The position numbers were made by a program, and so were the translations under genes. This document shows, piece after piece, positions 15,136 through 24,595 of a stretch of DNA of 64,000 nt. The notes beneath the pieces were generated by a model, which saw only the letters and a list, made by a program, of their open reading frames with translations, was not told the DNA's origin and ran no database searches. This DNA is from Phyllobacterium endophyticum (GTDB taxonomy: Bacteria; Pseudomonadota; Alphaproteobacteria; Rhizobiales; Rhizobiaceae). The DNA is taken from the NCBI RefSeq assembly GCF_003010935.1, contig NZ_PGGN01000001.1:1116001-1180000 (forward strand), read 5' to 3'. The first letter of the stretch is position 1, and every line of letters starts with the position of its first letter.

Positions 15136-15511
15136 CCCCTGTGCGAGATGTGTTCACCTCGTCACGGCTGTACGGAATGCTTTTCATGGAGATTAGCGCC
15201 CTCCCTGAAGACGCACCATTTAGGAGAAGTGAGAAGCGCTTCCTCCTGATGGATGAGCCTCAGTCTCTTGCCAATGTCCCTTTGGACTAATGGAATCACG
15301 CGTATAAAGGCTTATCCTGATTAAAAATGAGCTCTGGACAGTCCTGTGACCTCTCTGCGTCACGGTCGCGTCACGTTTGGTTAATTAGCTTCGCTGATCC
15401 GCAAGTATTTGCAGCATAGAACAGAATTGAAGTAGGCCTTTCAAAAATCTCTTTCCAATAAGACAAGTACAAGGGGACTACTTCTTTAATCAGGTAGCGT
15501 AGGGTGTGAAC
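15136..15511. promoter_or_regulatory. Divergent promoter region of wecA-like and LuxR-type genes
   Basis: A 376-nt intergenic region between divergent genes. On the plus strand it carries the GTCACG-N6-TCACG element described separately, then an A+T-rich -10-like stretch and a leader of about 115 nt before the LuxR-type gene. A hairpin-prone AGGAGAAG/CTTCCTCCT pair lies near 15223-15247. No additional reading frame is convincing. Confidence 0.55.
15359..15375 (+). promoter_or_regulatory. Direct-repeat operator GTCACG-N6-TCACG, site 1
   Basis: GTCACG at 15359 and TCACG at 15371 repeat with an 11-bp period. Eight nt downstream is ATTAGC (15384-15389), a weak -10-like hexamer. It lies 137 nt before the ATG of the LuxR-type gene at 15512 and in the same orientation. 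Three similar sites occur in the window, which is the main reason to call it an operator. Confidence 0.6.
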
Positions 15512-16300
15512 ATGAGTGTGACAGTTGCGCGTATGGGAACTGACCATATCCAGCAGGGATCCCCGGTTGAGAGCGGGACCAAATTCCGAAGCGGCATTTT
15601 CATTTATGCCGAAGCCGGAGTTGTGTTCCAGGGTTTGATGCAGTCGCTCCAAAGGACATTCCCGGATATCCGGGTCAGCCTGGCCAACAGCATCGGTGAC
15701 CCGGATACTCAAGACGGCGATGTAGGCCTCGTCCTGCTCCACGCCGATTTTGCGGTGGACGTCGTCGATTGCATCGCCCGTTGCAAGATGCGTTTCCCGA
15801 ATGCTTCCGTGACGCTGATGATCGATGAGAACAGCGCATCGATTCAGGAGTTTACCCGACTCTTCGACAGCAAGACGATCCAGGGTCTCTTGCCTTTCAA
15901 CTTGAAACTCGACGTGTGGCTGGCGGTGGTCTGGCTGTTGCTGAATGGCGGCGATTATTATCCCTCCAATGTCATACGCTCGATGGAAAAAACAGCTGGC
16001 GTGCTTCCCGTAAGCGTGCCGCAGCGTCAAAGCCAACCGGACCGTGCAGCAGCTGGCCGCGCCTGGCCCGTCAAGACACTTACATTGCGTGAGCACGAAA
16101 TATTGCAGCTTCTATCCGAAGGCCTGCAGAACAAGATCATTGCTGACCGGCTCACTCTGTCGATTCACACGGTCAAGGTTCACGTGCACAATCTGATCCG
16201 CAAATTGCGCGCCCATAACCGCACCCAGGCAACGGCAATCTACCGTAACAGCATGAATCCTCATGGGATGAAACCGTTCGACACGACAGCGGTGCACTGA
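15512..16300 (+). CDS. LuxR-type regulator, paralog A
   Basis: 262 aa. Residues about 25-150 form a receiver-like alpha/beta domain (SGIFIYAEAGVVFQGLMQSL ... DVGLVLLHADF) without the usual phospho-acceptor Asp; LLPFNLKLDVWLAVVWLLLN is a highly conserved stretch shared with the gene at 23774. The C-terminus is a LuxR HTH (LTLREHEILQLLSEGL, IHTVKVHVHNLIRKL). A GTG at 15506 is also in frame, but AGGG at 15501-15504 is best placed for the ATG at 15512. It is transcribed away from the polysaccharide operon and toward the RiPP block; a direct-repeat operator lies upstream. Target genes are unknown. Confidence 0.85.
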   Translation: MSVTVARMGTDHIQQGSPVESGTKFRSGIFIYAEAGVVFQGLMQSLQRTFPDIRVSLANSIGDPDTQDGDVGLVLLHADFAVDVVDCIARCKMRFPNASVTLMIDENSASIQEFTRLFDSKTIQGLLPFNLKLDVWLAVVWLLLNGGDYYPSNVIRSMEKTAGVLPVSVPQRQSQPDRAAAGRAWPVKTLTLREHEILQLLSEGLQNKIIADRLTLSIHTVKVHVHNLIRKLRAHNRTQATAIYRNSMNPHGMKPFDTTAVH

Positions 16301-17046: not shown

Positions 17047-19071
17047 ATGAAGCTGACGGTTTTTGGAGAGGCAACTGTTAGTCTGGGTGGGCAACTCGTG
17101 CCCCGCATACCCGCGAACTTTTTGCGTATCGTCGTTTATCTGCTTCTCGAGAACCCCAATCATTCTGTCTCACGGGGCAAGCTTTCCCAGGTATTCTGGT
17201 CCGACACGGATCAGGCTCACGCTTCCATGAATTTGCGCCAGAGTCTGGCGCGCATCCGCAAGTTTCAGGAGCAATACGGCCTCAATCTTATCCAGGGCGA
17301 TGCATCCTATGTCTATCTGAACCTTTCACAGGTGAAGGCCGAGCTGCTCAGCATCGACCTGCTTGATTATCTTGAATATGCGCAGCTCGGCGATATCGAG
17401 TCCGTTCTCAGTCTCGCCAATCTCTATACCGGCGATGTGCTTGCTCAGAATGAGCCACAAAATTCCGATTTCGACGAATGGCTGGATATTCAGCGCGTCA
17501 AACTGCGCGATGATCTGACGGCGACACTGTTGAAAATGGTCAACCAGCCTGTTGGCGTCAGCATTGATGAAAAGCGCCAATGTGCCCGCAAGCTGATCGA
17601 GATCGATCCCTATCAGGAGGTCGGCTATCGCACGTTGATGCAGACCGCATCGCAACTTGGTTTGATCGCGAAGGTCGAGCGTACATTCCGCGAATGCGCA
17701 AAGAAGCTCCGTGACGACCTTGATGTCGATCCGGAAGAAGAGACCATCGAACTTTACCAGAAACTGCTGCCCAAACTTTCACCAGCGACAACGCGAGCCC
17801 TCATCCTGCCGCAGCCGGCTCCTCCGCTCGTTACCAATGGCGTCGAAATCCAGACCCCGCAATCGATCCTGGCGACGACCCAGCTCGAGCAGAACAAAAG
17901 GGCCGGCCTGCCGCGCGTCATGGTCCTTTATATGCCGCACAATGCAGCGGATCCGATGGAGCAACTTGCAGCCTCACTGGTAGACGATATCACCATCGGG
18001 CTTTGCCGACTGCGTACGCTCTCGGTTGTCGCACCCTATACGTCCAGGAGAGTGGTCACCGAATCTCCCATCGACAGTTTCGAAGGGCTGAATGCGCAAT
18101 TCGGCGTCAACTATGCCGTCGACAGCAAGATCGTGCGCCGCGACGGTTTCTGCTTCCTGTCGGTGAAATTGGTCGATGTTGCTACGCAGGAAATCGTCTG
18201 GGCCGAAAAGCAGAAGTTCGATTATGTCCTGCCCGAGCAGCAATACCGCCAGCTGTCGATCCGCATCATCCTCTCCGTCGTATCGGTCATCGAGAAGTCC
18301 GAACTCGACCGCTACAACAAGCTTTACCAGGATCCGAACGCTTACTACTGGTACCTTGTAGGCAAGAGAGAATTTGAAAAACTCGACGTTGCCAAACTCC
18401 GTCAGGCGCGGCAATCGTTCAAGAACGCCTTAACGGCGGCTCCTGACTTTGTGCCTGCACTGAGCGGTATCGCGCGAACAATGCAGCGAGAGTGGTTGGT
18501 ATTGGCGCGGAAGGACAAAGACATCCTGCTTGAGGGCGAACAAATCGCTAGGCATGCTGCACCGGCCGATCCGGATGATGAGCGGCCGTTGCGCGAACTT
18601 GGCACCATCAGTATGTATCTCGGCAAATTCGACGATAGCCTGGAATATTTCGACCAGGGCGAGTCAATTAATCCGCAGCATGCCGATCTCCTTGCAGACT
18701 ACGCGGACGCGCTCAATCATTACGGATACCTTGATCTTTCGCTCGAAAAAATTGAACAGGCGATAGCGCTCAACCCTCTGGCTCCGGACTATTATTACTG
18801 GGTCGGTGCTGGGACGCTTCACGATCTTGATCGTTATGAAGAAGCGATTGCCTTCATCCAGCGTATGCAAAACCCGCGTGCTGCAGCCCGGCCCATGGCC
18901 GCCTGTTGGGCCATGCTCGGTGAGCGGGAAAAGGCGAGTGAATGGAGACAACGATCTTTGGAAGACAATCCAGATTTCCGAGTCGGGGATTGGATCAAAA
19001 ATATGTCTCTCAGAATTCCCGAACAACGTCAAAAATATGAGGCGTCTCTGCGCGAAGCAGGATTCCAATAG
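17047..19071 (+). CDS. SARP/BTAD-domain transcriptional regulator with TPR C-terminus
   Basis: 674 aa. Residues 1-95 form a winged-helix OmpR-like DNA-binding domain (MKLTVFGEATVSLGGQLVPR, SVSRGKLSQVFWSD, SMNLRQSLARIRK). Residues about 100-245 are a bacterial transcriptional activation domain (DEWLDIQRVKLRDDLTATLL ... AKKLRDDLDVDPEEETIELY). Residues about 290-420 resemble the TolB/FlgO-like segment seen in CadC and adenylate-cyclase-linked regulators (MEQLAASLVDDITIGLCRL). From about 430 TPR-like helices follow (FDDSLEYFDQGESINPQHAD). It lies 35 nt before the first precursor gene on the same strand and may be co-transcribed with it. SARP proteins are classic activators of antibiotic clusters in actinomycetes; regulation of this RiPP block is inference. 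Confidence 0.85.
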   Translation: MKLTVFGEATVSLGGQLVPRIPANFLRIVVYLLLENPNHSVSRGKLSQVFWSDTDQAHASMNLRQSLARIRKFQEQYGLNLIQGDASYVYLNLSQVKAELLSIDLLDYLEYAQLGDIESVLSLANLYTGDVLAQNEPQNSDFDEWLDIQRVKLRDDLTATLLKMVNQPVGVSIDEKRQCARKLIEIDPYQEVGYRTLMQTASQLGLIAKVERTFRECAKKLRDDLDVDPEEETIELYQKLLPKLSPATTRALILPQPAPPLVTNGVEIQTPQSILATTQLEQNKRAGLPRVMVLYMPHNAADPMEQLAASLVDDITIGLCRLRTLSVVAPYTSRRVVTESPIDSFEGLNAQFGVNYAVDSKIVRRDGFCFLSVKLVDVATQEIVWAEKQKFDYVLPEQQYRQLSIRIILSVVSVIEKSELDRYNKLYQDPNAYYWYLVGKREFEKLDVAKLRQARQSFKNALTAAPDFVPALSGIARTMQREWLVLARKDKDILLEGEQIARHAAPADPDDERPLRELGTISMYLGKFDDSLEYFDQGESINPQHADLLADYADALNHYGYLDLSLEKIEQAIALNPLAPDYYYWVGAGTLHDLDRYEEAIAFIQRMQNPRAAARPMAACWAMLGEREKASEWRQRSLEDNPDFRVGDWIKNMSLRIPEQRQKYEASLREAGFQ

Positions 19072-19106
19072 TTCTCAGTTCCAATCTCATCAAAGGACCC
19101 ATCTGC

Positions 19107-19349
19107 ATGGCGAAGTATTTCATTGTCGGCGAAGCCGGAAAAGACGAACTGTGGTTGGTTGATGTACAGAGTAAGAGTGTCGAACAACTGACGGATGCCG
19201 ATCTCCAGGGTTCCGATTTTTTTAAGGACGTCAAAGAGGCGCGAAAAAATGGGGTGTCGGTAGTTAAGGGAATAAATATTGCTGTTGCTACGGACAGTCG
19301 GTCGGCGGCTGATACTAAAATGCACTCTAACGGACCTGACAAAAAATAA
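19107..19349 (+). CDS. Putative RiPP precursor A, single core motif
   Basis: 80 aa. The N-terminus (YFIVGEAGKDELWLVD then SKSVEQL) is clearly related to that of the next small protein (YIMNDPETNALWLVD then TQTVEPL), which suggests a shared leader recognised by one enzyme. The C-terminus SRSAADTKMHSNGPDKK aligns with the first repeat of the larger protein, SRSDAADRAHSSG, giving a single degenerate core motif with His at 73. No cysteine, signal peptide or membrane segment. AAAGGA lies upstream of the ATG. Function as a RiPP substrate is inferred from homology to the repeat protein and proximity to YcaO and TfuA genes. Confidence 0.7.
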   Translation: MAKYFIVGEAGKDELWLVDVQSKSVEQLTDADLQGSDFFKDVKEARKNGVSVVKGINIAVATDSRSAADTKMHSNGPDKK

Positions 19350-19461
19350 AAACAAACTAAAATACGAGCGGAAAACAAGATGAGACAATTCTTTTCTTGA
19401 TCTAAAATAGAATCGTCATACGTTCGCCATGTGGGCTCTCCTTCATAGAAAGGTTATTCGC

Positions 19462-20001
19462 ATGGCAACGTTTTACATCATGAATGATCCAGAAACGAAC
19501 GCGCTTTGGCTCGTTGATTCGGAAACTCAAACGGTCGAGCCTCTCGATCGTGATTTAATTGCTTCATCGGGACTGGCTGGCACTGAATTCATTGATTCGA
19601 TTGCCAATCGACCCGGAAATATCTTTGCTGCCGATGCAAGCCGGAGTGACGCTGCTGATCGCGCTCATTCTAGCGGTATGGTGATGACGGCGGGCAGGCG
19701 GAATGATCCGTCGGACCGTGCGCATTTCTTTGGCCCTGCATCGAAAGAAGCAGATATCGTTGTAACAATGAAGGCACGGGATGAAACATCCGATCGTGCA
19801 CACTCCAGCAGCCCGGTTCTGTTCAGTGGCTATCGCAGCAATCCATCGGAGCGTGCACATTCCGCCGGTCCGGTTGTGGACAGCGTGTATCGCAGCAATC
19901 CATCTGAACGGGCGCATTCTGCCGGTCCGGTTGTGGCTAGTGGGTACCGCACCAATCCGTCGGAAAGGGCGCATTCCGCTGGTCCCGCGGCACTAAACTA
20001 A
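19462..20001 (+). CDS. Putative RiPP precursor B with six RAHS-type core repeats
   Basis: 179 aa from the ATG at 19462 (AAGG upstream; an in-frame start at 19429 adds residues not shared with the sister gene). Residues 1-55 are leader-like, with NALWLVDSETQTVEPL shared in pattern with the upstream small protein. From residue 66 six motifs follow: DRAHSSG, DRAHFFG, DRAHSSS and three identical SERAHSAGP, with RAH at 67, 87, 112, 131, 150 and 169; the last three periods are exactly 19 aa, joined by linkers such as VYRSNP. No Cys occurs in the whole protein, so Ser, Thr, His or the backbone would have to be modified. The YcaO gene begins 76 nt downstream. Interpretation as a multi-core RiPP precursor, like thiovarsolin-type repeats, is inference. 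Confidence 0.78.
   Translation: MATFYIMNDPETNALWLVDSETQTVEPLDRDLIASSGLAGTEFIDSIANRPGNIFAADASRSDAADRAHSSGMVMTAGRRNDPSDRAHFFGPASKEADIVVTMKARDETSDRAHSSSPVLFSGYRSNPSERAHSAGPVVDSVYRSNPSERAHSAGPVVASGYRTNPSERAHSAGPAALN
19657..19986 (+). repeat. Tandem coding repeats, consensus (S)(D/E)RAHS(A/S)GP
   Basis: Six in-frame copies encode the core motif. The last three units are 57 nt apart. Amino acids of SERAHSAGP are identical in the last three copies while many codons differ at synonymous positions (for example Arg CGT, CGG, AGG; Glu GAG, GAA, GAA; Pro CCG, CCG, CCC), so the repeats are not a recent duplication and the peptide is under constraint. Confidence 0.9.
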
Positions 20002-20077
20002 ATACTGTTGCAAGCGCGTTATCCAGCATTTGGATAGTTTGCAATAAATGCGTGTTTTACGGCCCGATGGAGTGGCA

Positions 20078-21334
20078 ATGAAACCATTGGCCGAGCTTCC
20101 GGTTCTTGACCGGCTGGCGGCAGACGAAGCGAACCTTCGTTCTGCTTTCCGCCCGGGAGAACCGTCGTCGACAAGACTGATTGATGCGGACGAAACCGTC
20201 AGCCGGTTGCGGCCGCACTTTCCCCGTTTGGGCATCGTCCGGATGGCCGAGGTGACCGGCCTTGACCGGATCGGCATTCCCGTGTGGATGGCCGTGCGTC
20301 CTAACAGTCGCACATTGGCCGTCAGCCAGGGCAAAGGCATCAGCGCCGCCCATGCCCGCGCTTCCGCCGTGATGGAAGCCGCCGAAATCGCCATTGCCGA
20401 AGATATCCCACTCGCTTCCTTTGCCGCCAGCCGCCGCGAGTTACTCGACGCCGGCCACGATGTATTTGACGGGCGTATGCTGTTGATGCGCGGCGCGGAC
20501 GAGGCGGGAGCCGATGAAAACGATTATTGGCTCGAAGGCTTCGACCTTTTGAAACAACAGCCGGTTTTTGTACCGCGTGAACTTGTCTCACTCGATTTCA
20601 CCTCGGCACGGCAATCCTGGCATTATTGCCAGTCGACCGATGGCCTTGCCTCGGGCAATTGCCTGCTGGAAGCAGTCATTCACGGATTGTGCGAGCGTGT
20701 CGAGCGCGATGCGACCGAGTTATGGCGCTTTCAACGCGACGCCGGTGTGCAGGCACATTGCGTCGATCCGGCTGTATTCGGCGATAGCGGCATAGACTGG
20801 CTGGCCGAGCGGATCGCCGCGGCAAATTTCGTTCTGCGGCTGTTCAATGTGACGTCGGATATTGGCCTGCCGGTCTTCATGGCGACGATCAGCCCGGCGA
20901 CACAGCATGGTACTTATCTGCATTTCGATCTTGCCGCTGGCTACGGCTGCCATTTGTCGCCGCGCGTTGCAGCGATGCGAGCCATAACCGAAGCGGCACA
21001 GACACGTATCACCAATATTTCCGGTGCGCGCGATGATTTCGACCCCTCCGAATATGCGCAGCGCCTTGCGCCGGATCTCGGTGTCTATATCCATGCCGAG
21101 CCAAGGGATCACTGGCGGTTCGACGAGCCAGAACCAGAGAATCGCGCCAGCCTTGAAACTTATCTTGAGCCCTTGCGCCGGCGAGGCATCGCAAGCGTCG
21201 TTGTCGTTCCGATGGGCGGTGAGGATTACGGCATGTCGGTCTGCCGTGTTTTGGTCAACGAACTCGAGAGTCCGGCCGGCATTCGCAAGCATCGGTTTGG
21301 CGGGCGTGCGCTCAACGCCATGCTCCGGCAATAG
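20078..21334 (+). CDS. YcaO-domain peptide-modifying enzyme
   Basis: 418 aa. YcaO enzymes use ATP to activate a peptide amide, giving azolines, amidines or, with TfuA, thioamides. Characteristic pieces: QGKGISAAHARASAVMEAAE (84-103) with the ATP/Mg-binding glutamates, and TDGLASGNCLLEAVIHGLCE (187-206) followed by RVERDA. The ATG at 20078 is chosen over 20048 because GGAG lies 5 nt upstream of it. The C-terminus is not Pro-rich, so it is unlike the azoline-forming E. coli-type or LAP enzymes with PxPxP ends. No E1-like or ocin-ThiF partner is seen; TfuA follows 9 nt later, which points to the thioamide-forming subgroup. Confidence 0.93.
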   Translation: MKPLAELPVLDRLAADEANLRSAFRPGEPSSTRLIDADETVSRLRPHFPRLGIVRMAEVTGLDRIGIPVWMAVRPNSRTLAVSQGKGISAAHARASAVMEAAEIAIAEDIPLASFAASRRELLDAGHDVFDGRMLLMRGADEAGADENDYWLEGFDLLKQQPVFVPRELVSLDFTSARQSWHYCQSTDGLASGNCLLEAVIHGLCERVERDATELWRFQRDAGVQAHCVDPAVFGDSGIDWLAERIAAANFVLRLFNVTSDIGLPVFMATISPATQHGTYLHFDLAAGYGCHLSPRVAAMRAITEAAQTRITNISGARDDFDPSEYAQRLAPDLGVYIHAEPRDHWRFDEPEPENRASLETYLEPLRRRGIASVVVVPMGGEDYGMSVCRVLVNELESPAGIRKHRFGGRALNAMLRQ

Positions 21335-21343
21335 GGGCGGGCG

Positions 21344-22084
21344 ATGAAGATCCTGTTTGCGGGCCCAAGTCTTTCTGGAACGGAATTTGTCCCTGTGCGA
21401 GGCGGTGAAGATCGCGTGCTGCCGGAACATGATTTGACCTGCCGCGGCCCCGCCAAATGCGGTGATATCACCCATGCAGTAGATCAGGGCTTCCGCGCCA
21501 TCGGACTGGTCGACGGGCGGTTTGAAGACGTCGCCGCAGTTTGGCACAAGGAGATACTTTACGCCTTGTCACGCGGCGTCGCTGTCTATGGCGCGGCCAG
21601 CATGGGCGCTTTGCGCGCCGCCGAGTGCCATCCATTTGGCATGATCGGTATCGGCGAAGTATTCGAGCGCTATGCCTTCGGAGGGTTGGAGGACGATGCT
21701 GCGGTTGCGCAGGTCCATGCGCCCGCCGAGTTTGGCTATCTTGCTTTTAGCGAGGCGATGGTCACTGTCGATGCGAGCCTCGATGCGGCATTTGCCGCTG
21801 GCTCGATCACCGCCGAGGAACGCCAGCTGATTCGTATTCGCGCTGATCGCGTATTCTTCAAGGAACGTACGTGGCAGCGGGTTTTCGATGCCGTCTCGGT
21901 TGAGGTGGACCAGGCAGCCGAGCGACTGAAACCGTACATCAGGAATATCAAGCGGCAGGATGCCCAGTCGCTGCTCGATGTCTTGCTGAACAACCCGGAC
22001 GCAGTTGCGCTCACAAAGCCGGCCGCTGATTTTGCTGACTGGCAGTTCAATGAAACGTCCCAGTGGGGCAAGCTCCGGCTCTGA
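21344..22084 (+). CDS. TfuA-like protein
   Basis: 246 aa. TfuA-like core: MKILFAGPSLSGTEF at the N-terminus, AVDQGFRAIGLVDGRFEDVA, KEILYALSRGVAVYGAASMG, ALRAAECHPFGMIGIGEVFE and GLEDDAAVAQVHAP. TfuA proteins are the usual partners of YcaO enzymes in trifolitoxin, thioviridamide-type and methanogen McrA thioglycine systems, where they are thought to deliver sulfur or allosterically support thioamidation. The gene lies 9 nt after the YcaO gene, so both are surely one operon. It is the last gene of the block on this strand; no transporter or peptidase follows. Confidence 0.92.
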   Translation: MKILFAGPSLSGTEFVPVRGGEDRVLPEHDLTCRGPAKCGDITHAVDQGFRAIGLVDGRFEDVAAVWHKEILYALSRGVAVYGAASMGALRAAECHPFGMIGIGEVFERYAFGGLEDDAAVAQVHAPAEFGYLAFSEAMVTVDASLDAAFAAGSITAEERQLIRIRADRVFFKERTWQRVFDAVSVEVDQAAERLKPYIRNIKRQDAQSLLDVLLNNPDAVALTKPAADFADWQFNETSQWGKLRL

Positions 22085-22205: not shown

Positions 22206-22437
22206 ATGTGGTCGCAAGTTTAACGCATGAAAACAAAACAAAAAACATTCAAGCGTGTGTGGGAGCAAGCGGGCAGTCAGTGGGGGACCTACGCCGAAGT
22301 TCTGAAAATTCTATTAACAGTAAGTCAGAATTTCGGCGTAGCACTGACCCAAGTAGGGGGTTTAGTTAGTAAACAAAGTTCAGAAAACGACAGGCAAAAG
22401 CCAAAGATTACGCGCCCTCTGGGGCGCGTTTTTTCTT
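22206..22437 (+). ncRNA. Candidate small RNA with long hairpin
   Basis: A promoter-like element and an intrinsic terminator bracket about 230 nt. In it, 22289-22305 pairs with 22325-22341 (17 bp, one mismatch), and the stem is extended by 22276-22282 pairing with 22342-22348 across a 6-nt bulge; the loop is 19 nt. A reading frame from 22227 has no stop before the terminator, so a terminated transcript could not encode a complete protein. This favours a structured RNA. The family is not recognised; the exact 5' end is inferred. Confidence 0.6.
22411..22437 (+). terminator. Intrinsic terminator of the candidate small RNA
   Basis: Perfect 7-bp GC stem CGCGCCC / GGGCGCG with TCTG loop, followed by six T residues on the plus strand. 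No T-run follows it on the minus strand. Confidence 0.9.
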
Positions 22438-22456: not shown

Positions 22457-22714
22457 TCAGCCGGTTTCGCTTGGGCGCTCGCTTCCGTCATCATCTTCAT
22501 CGTCGCCGGCGGCAAGCCATTGGTCCAGAATCGCGACCGACATCGGACCGAGATTGGGTATCAGTGTCAGGTCGAGCTGCCGCGCCCATGCGCGTTCAGG
22601 CTCCCAGTCAGGCGGCATGTTCCATGGTGTCCCGCCAAACTCAATCCACAGTGCATTGACGATCCGCGAATGCACGGTCTTTGAGGGACAGAATGTCTGT
22701 AGGCGATTTCGCAT
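22457..22714 (-). CDS. Small protein with helix-hairpin-helix-like segment
   Basis: 85 aa, acidic tail (GDDEDDDGSE). AAGGG lies 5 nt before the ATG, a good ribosome-binding site. Residues 45-69 (RQLDLTLIPNLGPMSVAILD) resemble a helix-hairpin-helix of the kind found in the C-terminal domain of RNA polymerase alpha or in small DNA-binding proteins; this is a pattern impression, not an established homology. It faces the candidate small RNA convergently, with only the terminator between them. No family name can be given. Confidence 0.55.
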   Translation of the reverse strand: MRNRLQTFCPSKTVHSRIVNALWIEFGGTPWNMPPDWEPERAWARQLDLTLIPNLGPMSVAILDQWLAAGDDEDDDGSERPSETG

Positions 22715-23773: not shown

Positions 23774-24595
23774 TTATACGGCCCGGGCCAAGTCTGGCGA
23801 GCCGTCCATGCGGCTCATCCCGGTACCGTACGCTTTAAAAGGGGGCTGGTACGCCTCCTGGTCCATGCTATTGCGGTACACCGCCGCGGCCTGCGTACGG
23901 TTGTGAACGCGGAGCTTGCGAATAAGGTTGTGCACATGAACCTTGACCGTATGCTCGGAAAGCGACAGGCGGTCTGCAATGATCTTGTTCTGCAAGCCTT
24001 CGGAGAGCAGTTCCAGGATTTGGGTTTCGCGCAGCGTCAACGTCTTTATCTGCTTGCCGACTCCCGAATTGTTCTTTGCCTGATTGCCGAAGCCGTGTCC
24101 TTGAGCACCCTGCATGCCGTTCGAGTTCTTTTCGATCGAGCGCATGATCGCTGATGGATAATATTCGCCGCCATTCAGCAGAAGCCAGATAACGGCAAGC
24201 CAGATATCAAGCTTGAGGCTAAAAGGAAGAAGACCCTGAACCTGGCGACTGTCGAAAAGGCTGTTCAGTTCCTGTACGCCAGCGTTGTTTTCGTCGATCA
24301 TCATTGTGATCGATGCGCCTGGGAAGCGCTTTTTGAAACGTGTGACGCATTCGGCCGGATCGGCAACGAAGCTGCTATGGACGAGGACTAGACCGATATC
24401 ATTGTCAAAGTCGTCTACCTCCACGAACTTGCTGGACAGATGAACGTCAATGTCAGGAAATGTTCGCTCTAGAGACTGAACCAGGCCCTGAAATACTACT
24501 CCTGATTCGGCATAGATGAAGATGCCGCTTTTGAATTTTGATTCTCCGGCTATTTTGGATGCATAATGATTATGGTCAGGTGTTGTTCCACTCAT
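23774..24595 (-). CDS. LuxR-type regulator, paralog B
   Basis: 273 aa. It is collinear with and very similar to the gene at 15512: FKSGIFIYAESGVVFQGLVQ, then MMIDENNAG, QGLLPFSLKLDIWLAVIWLL, and the LuxR HTH LTLRETQILELLSEGLQNKI and EHTVKVHVHNLIRKLR. The receiver-like domain again has no obvious phospho-acceptor Asp (IGLVLVHSSF). GGGA lies upstream of the ATG. The two paralogs point toward each other and enclose the SARP/RiPP block. A direct-repeat operator lies about 155 nt upstream, in the same relative orientation as for paralog A. Confidence 0.85.
   Translation of the reverse strand: MSGTTPDHNHYASKIAGESKFKSGIFIYAESGVVFQGLVQSLERTFPDIDVHLSSKFVEVDDFDNDIGLVLVHSSFVADPAECVTRFKKRFPGASITMMIDENNAGVQELNSLFDSRQVQGLLPFSLKLDIWLAVIWLLLNGGEYYPSAIMRSIEKNSNGMQGAQGHGFGNQAKNNSGVGKQIKTLTLRETQILELLSEGLQNKIIADRLSLSEHTVKVHVHNLIRKLRVHNRTQAAAVYRNSMDQEAYQPPFKAYGTGMSRMDGSPDLARAV

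Follow-up and report, generated by a model that had tools for sequence, protein, structure and literature searches.

The locus considered here raises a simple question: what do a YcaO protein and a TfuA protein act upon when they are encoded directly behind a small protein built of repeats? The genes lie in a 64,000-nucleotide stretch of the Phyllobacterium endophyticum genome (contig NZ_PGGN01000001.1, positions 1,116,001 to 1,180,000), which we call the window and to which all coordinates refer. An earlier reading of the DNA (the original prediction) had proposed a cluster for a ribosomally synthesized and posttranslationally modified peptide (RiPP) with a multicore precursor. In the current study, we compared this cassette with its counterparts in the genus, family and order, and found a multicore YcaO-TfuA RiPP cluster to be well supported. 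Judging from sequence, predicted models and analogy, we think it probable that the precursors consist of a folded leader followed by disordered cores, that the cassette has a regulator of its own, and that it works much as the thiovarsolin system does, although on a precursor that looks different, placing one thioamide on each core unit.

RESULTS

Layout of the cassette

Positions 17047 to 22084 hold five genes on the same strand, encoding a regulator with BTAD and TPR domains, two short putative precursors (P1 and P2), YcaO and TfuA. The repeat protein, YcaO and TfuA had been recognized in the original prediction, which omitted the regulator and P1; position 17047 is in fact the start of the regulator gene and not that of a precursor. 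The features are as follows.

17047..19071, plus strand: transcriptional regulator with BTAD and TPR domains, 674 aa, encoded by the first of the five genes (Pfam BTAD, E value of 1e-10, plus TPR models)
19107..19349, plus strand: P1, putative single-core precursor, 80 aa, leader at about residues 1 to 60 (alignment of the 12 sequences of profile A2)
19299..19337, plus strand: P1 core RSAADTKMHSNGP, resembling the P2 unit (shuffle test)
19462..20001, plus strand: P2, putative multicore precursor, 179 aa, leader at residues 1 to 57 (folded in the model, remainder disordered)
19642..19680, plus strand: P2 core unit 1, RSDAADRAHSSGM
19699..19737, plus strand: P2 core unit 2, RNDPSDRAHFFGP
19777..19815, plus strand: P2 core unit 3, RDETSDRAHSSSP
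19834..19872, plus strand: P2 core unit 4, RSNPSERAHSAGP
19891..19929, plus strand: P2 core unit 5, RSNPSERAHSAGP
19948..19986, plus strand: P2 core unit 6, RTNPSERAHSAGP
20048..21334, plus strand: YcaO, 428 aa (418 aa if the start is 20078; Pfam PF02624, E value of 5.3e-62)
21344..22084, plus strand: TfuA, 246 aa (Pfam PF07812, E value of 2.1e-40; PDB 6xp8, E value of 4.9e-24)

The ycaO and tfuA genes are adjacent, 10 nt apart on the same strand. The gap between P2 and YcaO is 76 nt, as first proposed, if translation starts at the second ATG (20078), and 46 nt from the start of the longest frame (20048); we favor the second ATG because homologues are 418 aa long and a GGAG-like site is present. 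The genome (5.5 Mb) contains a single YcaO match, 97 to 98% identical to the YcaO of four Phyllobacterium records, including P. bourgognense and P. trifolii. Neither P1 nor P2 matched any Pfam family. The predicted absence of an E1-like partner was borne out among the five cassette genes, the extent of the search, where no Pfam or NCBIfam model of the E1 or RRE families matched.

Repeats and leader

The predicted six-unit repeat frame, followed by YcaO and then TfuA, was confirmed, both by the (D/E)RAH(S/F) units within 19462-20001 and by the two Pfam matches given above. The units begin at residues 61, 80, 106, 125, 144 and 163 of P2, a spacing of 19, 26, 19, 19 and 19 residues and not the constant 19-residue period originally described. 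When the P2 tail was shuffled 100,000 times, six units were never reached and the maximum was 2. Units 4 to 6 differ from one another by 5 or 6 synonymous and 0 or 1 nonsynonymous changes among 13 codons; units 1 to 3 are more diverged, with 5 to 7 nonsynonymous differences in every pair containing one of them. The core of P1 resembles unit RSNPSERAHSAGP of P2; when the last 30 residues of P1 were shuffled 20,000 times, 5 shuffles scored as high. The N-terminal domains of P1 and P2 are likewise of the same kind, with a common leader pattern.

The predicted model of P2 has a folded head (strands at residues 4 to 9, 14 to 19 and 24 to 28, helices at 30 to 34 and 38 to 48, and a strand at 54 to 57) and a disordered tail, with a model confidence (pLDDT) below 50 for 118 of 179 residues. 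The P1 model (mean pLDDT of 79.7) places three strands and two helices at roughly the same positions. Structure comparison revealed no solved structure that convincingly matches this leader domain. In six Phyllobacterium pairs, the ratio of nonsynonymous to synonymous substitution rates (dN/dS) was 0.04 to 0.07 for YcaO, 0.08 to 0.15 for TfuA, 0.08 to 0.20 for P2 (computable in 5 of the 6) and 0.10 to 0.24 for P1 (4 of the 6). For many of these comparisons dS was close to 1, higher than 1 or could not be computed.

The cassette has a mosaic look when set beside its close relatives: YcaO is 97 to 98% and P2 91 to 93% identical, TfuA just 80 to 82%. The P1 of the window is 46% identical to that of locus L003, yet it has the same sequence as that of L002. 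Parts of the cassette may have been swapped by recombination.

Unit variation within Phyllobacterium

YcaO is present in 18 of 20 Phyllobacterium genomes, that of the window included; the two genomes without it also lack a full-length regulator, each having one distant match to its C-terminal part. In the window, P2 is flanked by P1 and YcaO, and the order is the same in all 19 other Phyllobacterium cassettes read, two of which (L016 and L127) probably come from one genome. Across the genus the unit reads R-S-x-P-S-(D/E)-R-x-(H/F/S/Y/L)-S, and among 82 units from 18 P2 sequences R1 was found in 81, R7 in 80, S5 in 75 and S10 in 75. Because the pattern used to gather the units leaves few positions free apart from 8 and 9, conservation elsewhere in the unit is partly built in. 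Position 9, which the pattern leaves free, is H in 36 units, F in 21, S in 11, Y in 10, L in 3 and I in 1. The proposed His/Ser-centered core thus does not hold for the genus; His-Ser is the version of one clade only. P2 carries 1 to 8 copies of its unit, with a period of 13, 19 or 24 residues, plus the one 26-residue spacer in the clade of the window. P2 of the window does lack cysteine, as noted originally, and so does the P2 of its clade, but this is no general trait: the other 13 of the 18 P2 read contain 1 to 3 Cys, mostly in the leader.

Enzyme affinities

YcaO scored 191.6 bits with TIGR03266 (McrA thioamidation; cutoff, 365) and 113.7 bits with the SagD cyclodehydratase model (cutoff, 219), and TfuA scored 160.1 bits with NF033432 (McrA TfuA; cutoff, 235.2), all three below the cutoffs. 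The closest solved chain to YcaO is MJ1094 (E value of 2.1e-24); cyanobactin YcaOs are also close, and PDB relatives include TruD and LynD. The blocks MEAAE, EAVIHGLCERVERD and EAAQTR, which we take to be ATP binding, align with MEAIE, EAILHATLEIIERD and EVAQSR of MJ1094.

Spread of the leader family

Profile A2, built from 12 P1 sequences, matched 42 of the 297 genomes searched in the family. With YcaO scored as present at 1e-40 and the lists compared by hand, the leader was found in 42 of 73 genomes with YcaO and in 0 of 224 without it. Ten of the 51 A2 rows come from the genus; of the 41 others, 38 lie directly upstream of YcaO on the same strand (gap of -34 to 382 nt). Homologues of the repeat protein occurring mostly apart from YcaO and TfuA would have spoken against the original prediction, and the leader matches do not show this. 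The remaining three (L106, L135 and L142) are orphans whose genomes carry YcaO elsewhere.

At an E value of 0.01, a wider profile, A3 (34 sequences), matched 35 of the 397 genomes searched in the order; these represent eight further families, of which one (f2) is reached by no more than a weak match. When 20 YcaO places were read, mainly from genomes unmatched by A2, an A3 peptide was found in five (L186, L191, L202, L203 and L204), two of which belong to genomes that A2 had already matched. A3 also matched 193 database proteins; the best 120 of these, where named, are hypothetical proteins of Rhizobium, Pararhizobium, Sinorhizobium, Neorhizobium, Ensifer and others. On this sequence evidence, the P1 leader is a member of an unnamed family common in rhizobia.

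Regulator, TfuA and neighbors

Stretches of 9 to 18 kb around 84 YcaO loci (the window counted; L016 and L127 again look like one genome) were searched with the proteins of the window and with A3. The BTAD regulator gene, which played no part in the choice of loci, precedes the peptide on the same strand in all 67 loci with both peptide and YcaO, 172 to 1086 nt before the YcaO homology, and TfuA lies on the same strand in 65 of them. The regulator also precedes all four orphan peptides (L106, L135, L142 and L184). Its C-terminal part has many paralogues, with 13 matches in the genome of the window. When 14 window genes were sought in 56 loci, again including the window, the regulator and TfuA alone recurred outside the genus, the exceptions being single matches in L114 and L137, one to an amidase-like gene and one to a different gene. 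A shared exporter could have been missed, because the neighbors at the other loci were not annotated.

Loci with peptides of other types were also seen. L190, L196, L198 and L201, one clade on the YcaO tree, keep the regulator-YcaO-TfuA order with an unrelated peptide of ca. 42 to 52 aa, ending in NIVHAVRFR or NIVHALKFR, directly before YcaO. In L195, L199, L200 and L205, a BTAD regulator and YcaO-TfuA accompany a peptide of ca. 140 to 160 aa whose start (YVIG..GSGVLFI) looks like the A3 leader; profile comparison found no link between the two. Two Phyllobacterium genomes have a second, distant YcaO-TfuA pair (L128 and L129; 31 to 32% identity) with neither a BTAD regulator nor an A3 peptide.

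Recurrence of core repetition

Outside Phyllobacterium, most of the precursors read finish in a single SGxxD-type core, and some repeat cores of their own: SGKL four times (L107), GLHE three times (L118) and GGYMD three times (L113). In other families of the order we found GGFFE or GGFLE four times (L175 and L182), a 20-residue unit six times (L180), units containing RSDAASHHYF eight times at a spacing of 23 to 28 (L181), and a unit of ca. 24 residues four times, as counted by eye (L185). Repeated cores are thus present on several branches. In a 69-row tree of YcaO, the multicore label requires 8 changes, at least 6 of them forced by well-supported branches; labels were assigned by eye, and gains are not distinguished from losses. 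The 15 of 84 rows left off this tree are L127 (which probably duplicates L016), L122 (which is short) and 13 with other peptide types (L128, L129, L187, L188, L189, L192, L193, L194, L195, L197, L199, L200 and L205). Some branches are long, and L179 and L185 may join falsely.

Flanking features

Two LuxR-type regulators, paralogue-like by eye, stand on either side of the cassette (15506-16300 and 23774-24595), and both are kept in several relatives. An inverted repeat 3' of TfuA (22289-22341; 17-nt arms, 94% complementary, 19 nt between them) had no Rfam match. A short minus-strand frame (22457-22714) is 100% identical across 67 to 69 aa in five relatives (L002 to L005 and L126) and is found farther off in others; it is perhaps a small conserved gene. 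Terminator-like sites showed no excess over shuffled sequence (5 found versus 7.1 expected), and one lies behind the cassette.

22410..22429, plus strand: weak terminator-like stem-loop with a T run, 3' of the cassette (8 pairs, 7 of them G-C)

DISCUSSION

We read this locus as a YcaO-TfuA RiPP cassette because the two enzyme genes are adjacent, because YcaO scores better with TIGR03266 than with SagD, and because the leader occurs in 42 of 73 genomes with YcaO versus 0 of 224 without it and lies directly upstream of YcaO in 38 of 41 cases outside the genus. The same reading is suggested by cores that recur with different sequences and periods, by the folded head and disordered tail, by the silent changes in units 4 to 6 and by the dN/dS values. 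Gene content, conservation, linkage, the predicted leader fold with its disordered cores, and recurrent core repetition can all be followed in the sequences. P1 and P2 look like short precursors, with a conserved leader and variable cores, upstream of YcaO.

What the enzymes do with them, that is, thioamidation, the bond altered, the role of the leader, the cutting and any export, we infer. By analogy with thiovarsolin, for which a repeat precursor, YcaO and TfuA suffice, it seems likeliest that the leader guides the enzymes and that every core is thioamidated. The regulator would turn on P1 (one core), P2 (six cores) and YcaO-TfuA. As leader, the enzymes would grip the folded domain at the N terminus of each precursor; a further protein for leader binding was not seen in the cassette. 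YcaO would use ATP and activate a backbone carbonyl in every disordered unit (R-S-x-P-S-D/E-R-x-x-S). TfuA, which takes sulfide from a thiocarboxylated carrier (excerpts of PMC13063428), would supply the sulfide and so give one thioamide per unit. Proteases from elsewhere in the cell would presumably cleave between units to yield several copies of a short peptide per precursor.

A number of observations weigh against this reading. No TfuA was found near YcaO in 2 of the 67 loci (L123 and L131), and the four orphan peptides have no YcaO within the stretch read (for L184, the genome itself was not searched). A2 found no match in 31 of the 73 YcaO genomes, and 17 of the 84 YcaO loci have no A3-type peptide, so this type of YcaO also pairs with other peptides; a regulator lies upstream on the same strand in 8 of these 17, a weaker match lies 4 to 5 kb off on the other strand in 7, and none was found in 2 (L128 and L129). 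Among the cassette genes we identified no protease, no exporter or other transporter and no immunity gene. Finally, no residue is invariant across all 82 core units, and the modified site or bond therefore cannot be named from sequence.

Several other explanations have to be weighed. YcaO might act as a cyclodehydratase on the conserved serine of each unit, giving oxazolines (-18 Da) or another backbone change. Ser does occupy position 5 and position 10 in 75 of 82 units each, both favored by the collecting pattern; YcaOs are known azoline makers (excerpts of PMC13063428), and TruD and LynD are among the PDB relatives. The presence of TfuA in 65 of 67 loci, the absence of an E1-like partner among the cassette genes and a SagD score below that of the thioamidation model all argue the other way, and we regard this outcome as unlikely. 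Less probable again is that P1 is the true substrate and P2 a decoy or a structural protein. The P1 form is the one common to other genera, and A3 gives P2 at most ca. 30 bits, compared with 69 to 92 for P1, with some P2 unmatched; but P2 has the leader pattern, evolves under constraint, carries a unit like the P1 core and keeps its place between P1 and YcaO in every Phyllobacterium cassette read, and core repetition is also seen in precursors from other genera. Some YcaO enzymes are known to modify entire proteins (excerpts of PMC13063428), and the pair could modify some other cell protein (compare McrA and uL16), the repeat protein being unrelated; given that the peptide was confined to YcaO genomes among those searched in the family, and given its place directly upstream of YcaO in 38 of 41 cases, we consider this very improbable. 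Thioamidation of the cores of both precursors remains our preferred explanation.

A further possibility concerns the role of the product and is compatible with that explanation: the modified peptide may be no antibiotic but a signal that its own TPR regulator senses, within one cell or from cell to cell. Peptide sensing by TPR regulators is known from other bacteria, and the constancy of this regulator (67 of 67 loci and 4 of 4 orphans, in a survey that did not select for it) makes a peptide-sensing circuit a serious possibility, as does, in its way, a cassette in which no exporter or immunity gene was identified. Against it stand the many paralogues of the regulator's C-terminal part, the chance that exporters were overlooked among unannotated neighbors, and the fact that SARP/BTAD regulators commonly just activate product clusters. 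Overall, we judge a signaling role to be possible but rather doubtful. In its broadest and equally tentative form, the idea would make this a widespread rhizobial signaling module, in which YcaO-TfuA modifies a peptide whose folded leader bears between one and eight disordered cores and the always-adjacent regulator senses it; lineages would reinvent core number and core sequence but keep regulator and leader together, and each orphan pair elsewhere in a genome would add a channel that relies on the one YcaO.

If thioamidation of the cores is correct, rhizobia and their relatives harbor a large unnamed family of probably thioamidated peptides, made by a minimal cassette that could easily be rebuilt in E. 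coli. With between one and eight cores, of differing sequence, behind one leader domain, the natural precursors would be a ready set for asking which bond YcaO-TfuA picks and how a leader is read without an RRE partner, and the constant regulator-peptide pairing makes a signaling role directly testable in plant-associated bacteria.

Comparison with known systems

Trifolitoxin (tfx) of Rhizobium, likened here from its description, is also made by a rhizobial YcaO/TfuA-type cluster with a small precursor, but that precursor is short and single core, and the cluster has additional modifying genes. Cyanobactins, like P2, have several cores per precursor and YcaO-domain enzymes; they differ in their heterocycles, macrocycles and own proteases, none of which was seen in the cassette of the window. 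Their multicore precursors are named in excerpts of PMC6511847. The McrA thioglycine system, with an MJ1094-type YcaO and a TfuA, supplies the nearest solved YcaO and the best NCBIfam models; its substrate is a large enzyme rather than small peptides, and the window proteins score below its model cutoffs.

The nearest likeness is to thiovarsolin of Streptomyces varsoviensis (excerpts of PMC6511847), in which, as here, an imperfect-repeat precursor is followed by YcaO and TfuA, the cluster has no protease, varA, varY and varT suffice for production, and repeats in the precursor family range from none to five. The thiovarsolin core, APR (same excerpts), is absent from P2. Judged by the description of the thiovarsolin cluster, the present cassette also differs in its folded leader domain, in the additional precursor with one core and in the BTAD and TPR regulator. 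In the wide sense, the cluster is not undescribed, as the original prediction had it: Malit et al. (2021) counted more than 500 Rhizobium TfuA clusters in silico (excerpts of PMC8120280). These, too, are YcaO-TfuA pairs in Rhizobiaceae, and the present family is probably among them. Sections 11 and 12 of that paper class the precursors as CCRG-2, Nif11, albusnodin or berninamycin-like and mention neither the present leader nor a BTAD regulator. In the open-license literature searched (without supplements), Phyllobacterium and YcaO are named together only in papers on phazolicin, and no description of this precursor family, its folded leader, its multicore forms or its regulator was found. YcaO-TfuA RiPPs as such are a known kind; as far as this literature goes, the precursor family, the folded leader, the multicore forms and the regulator would be new.

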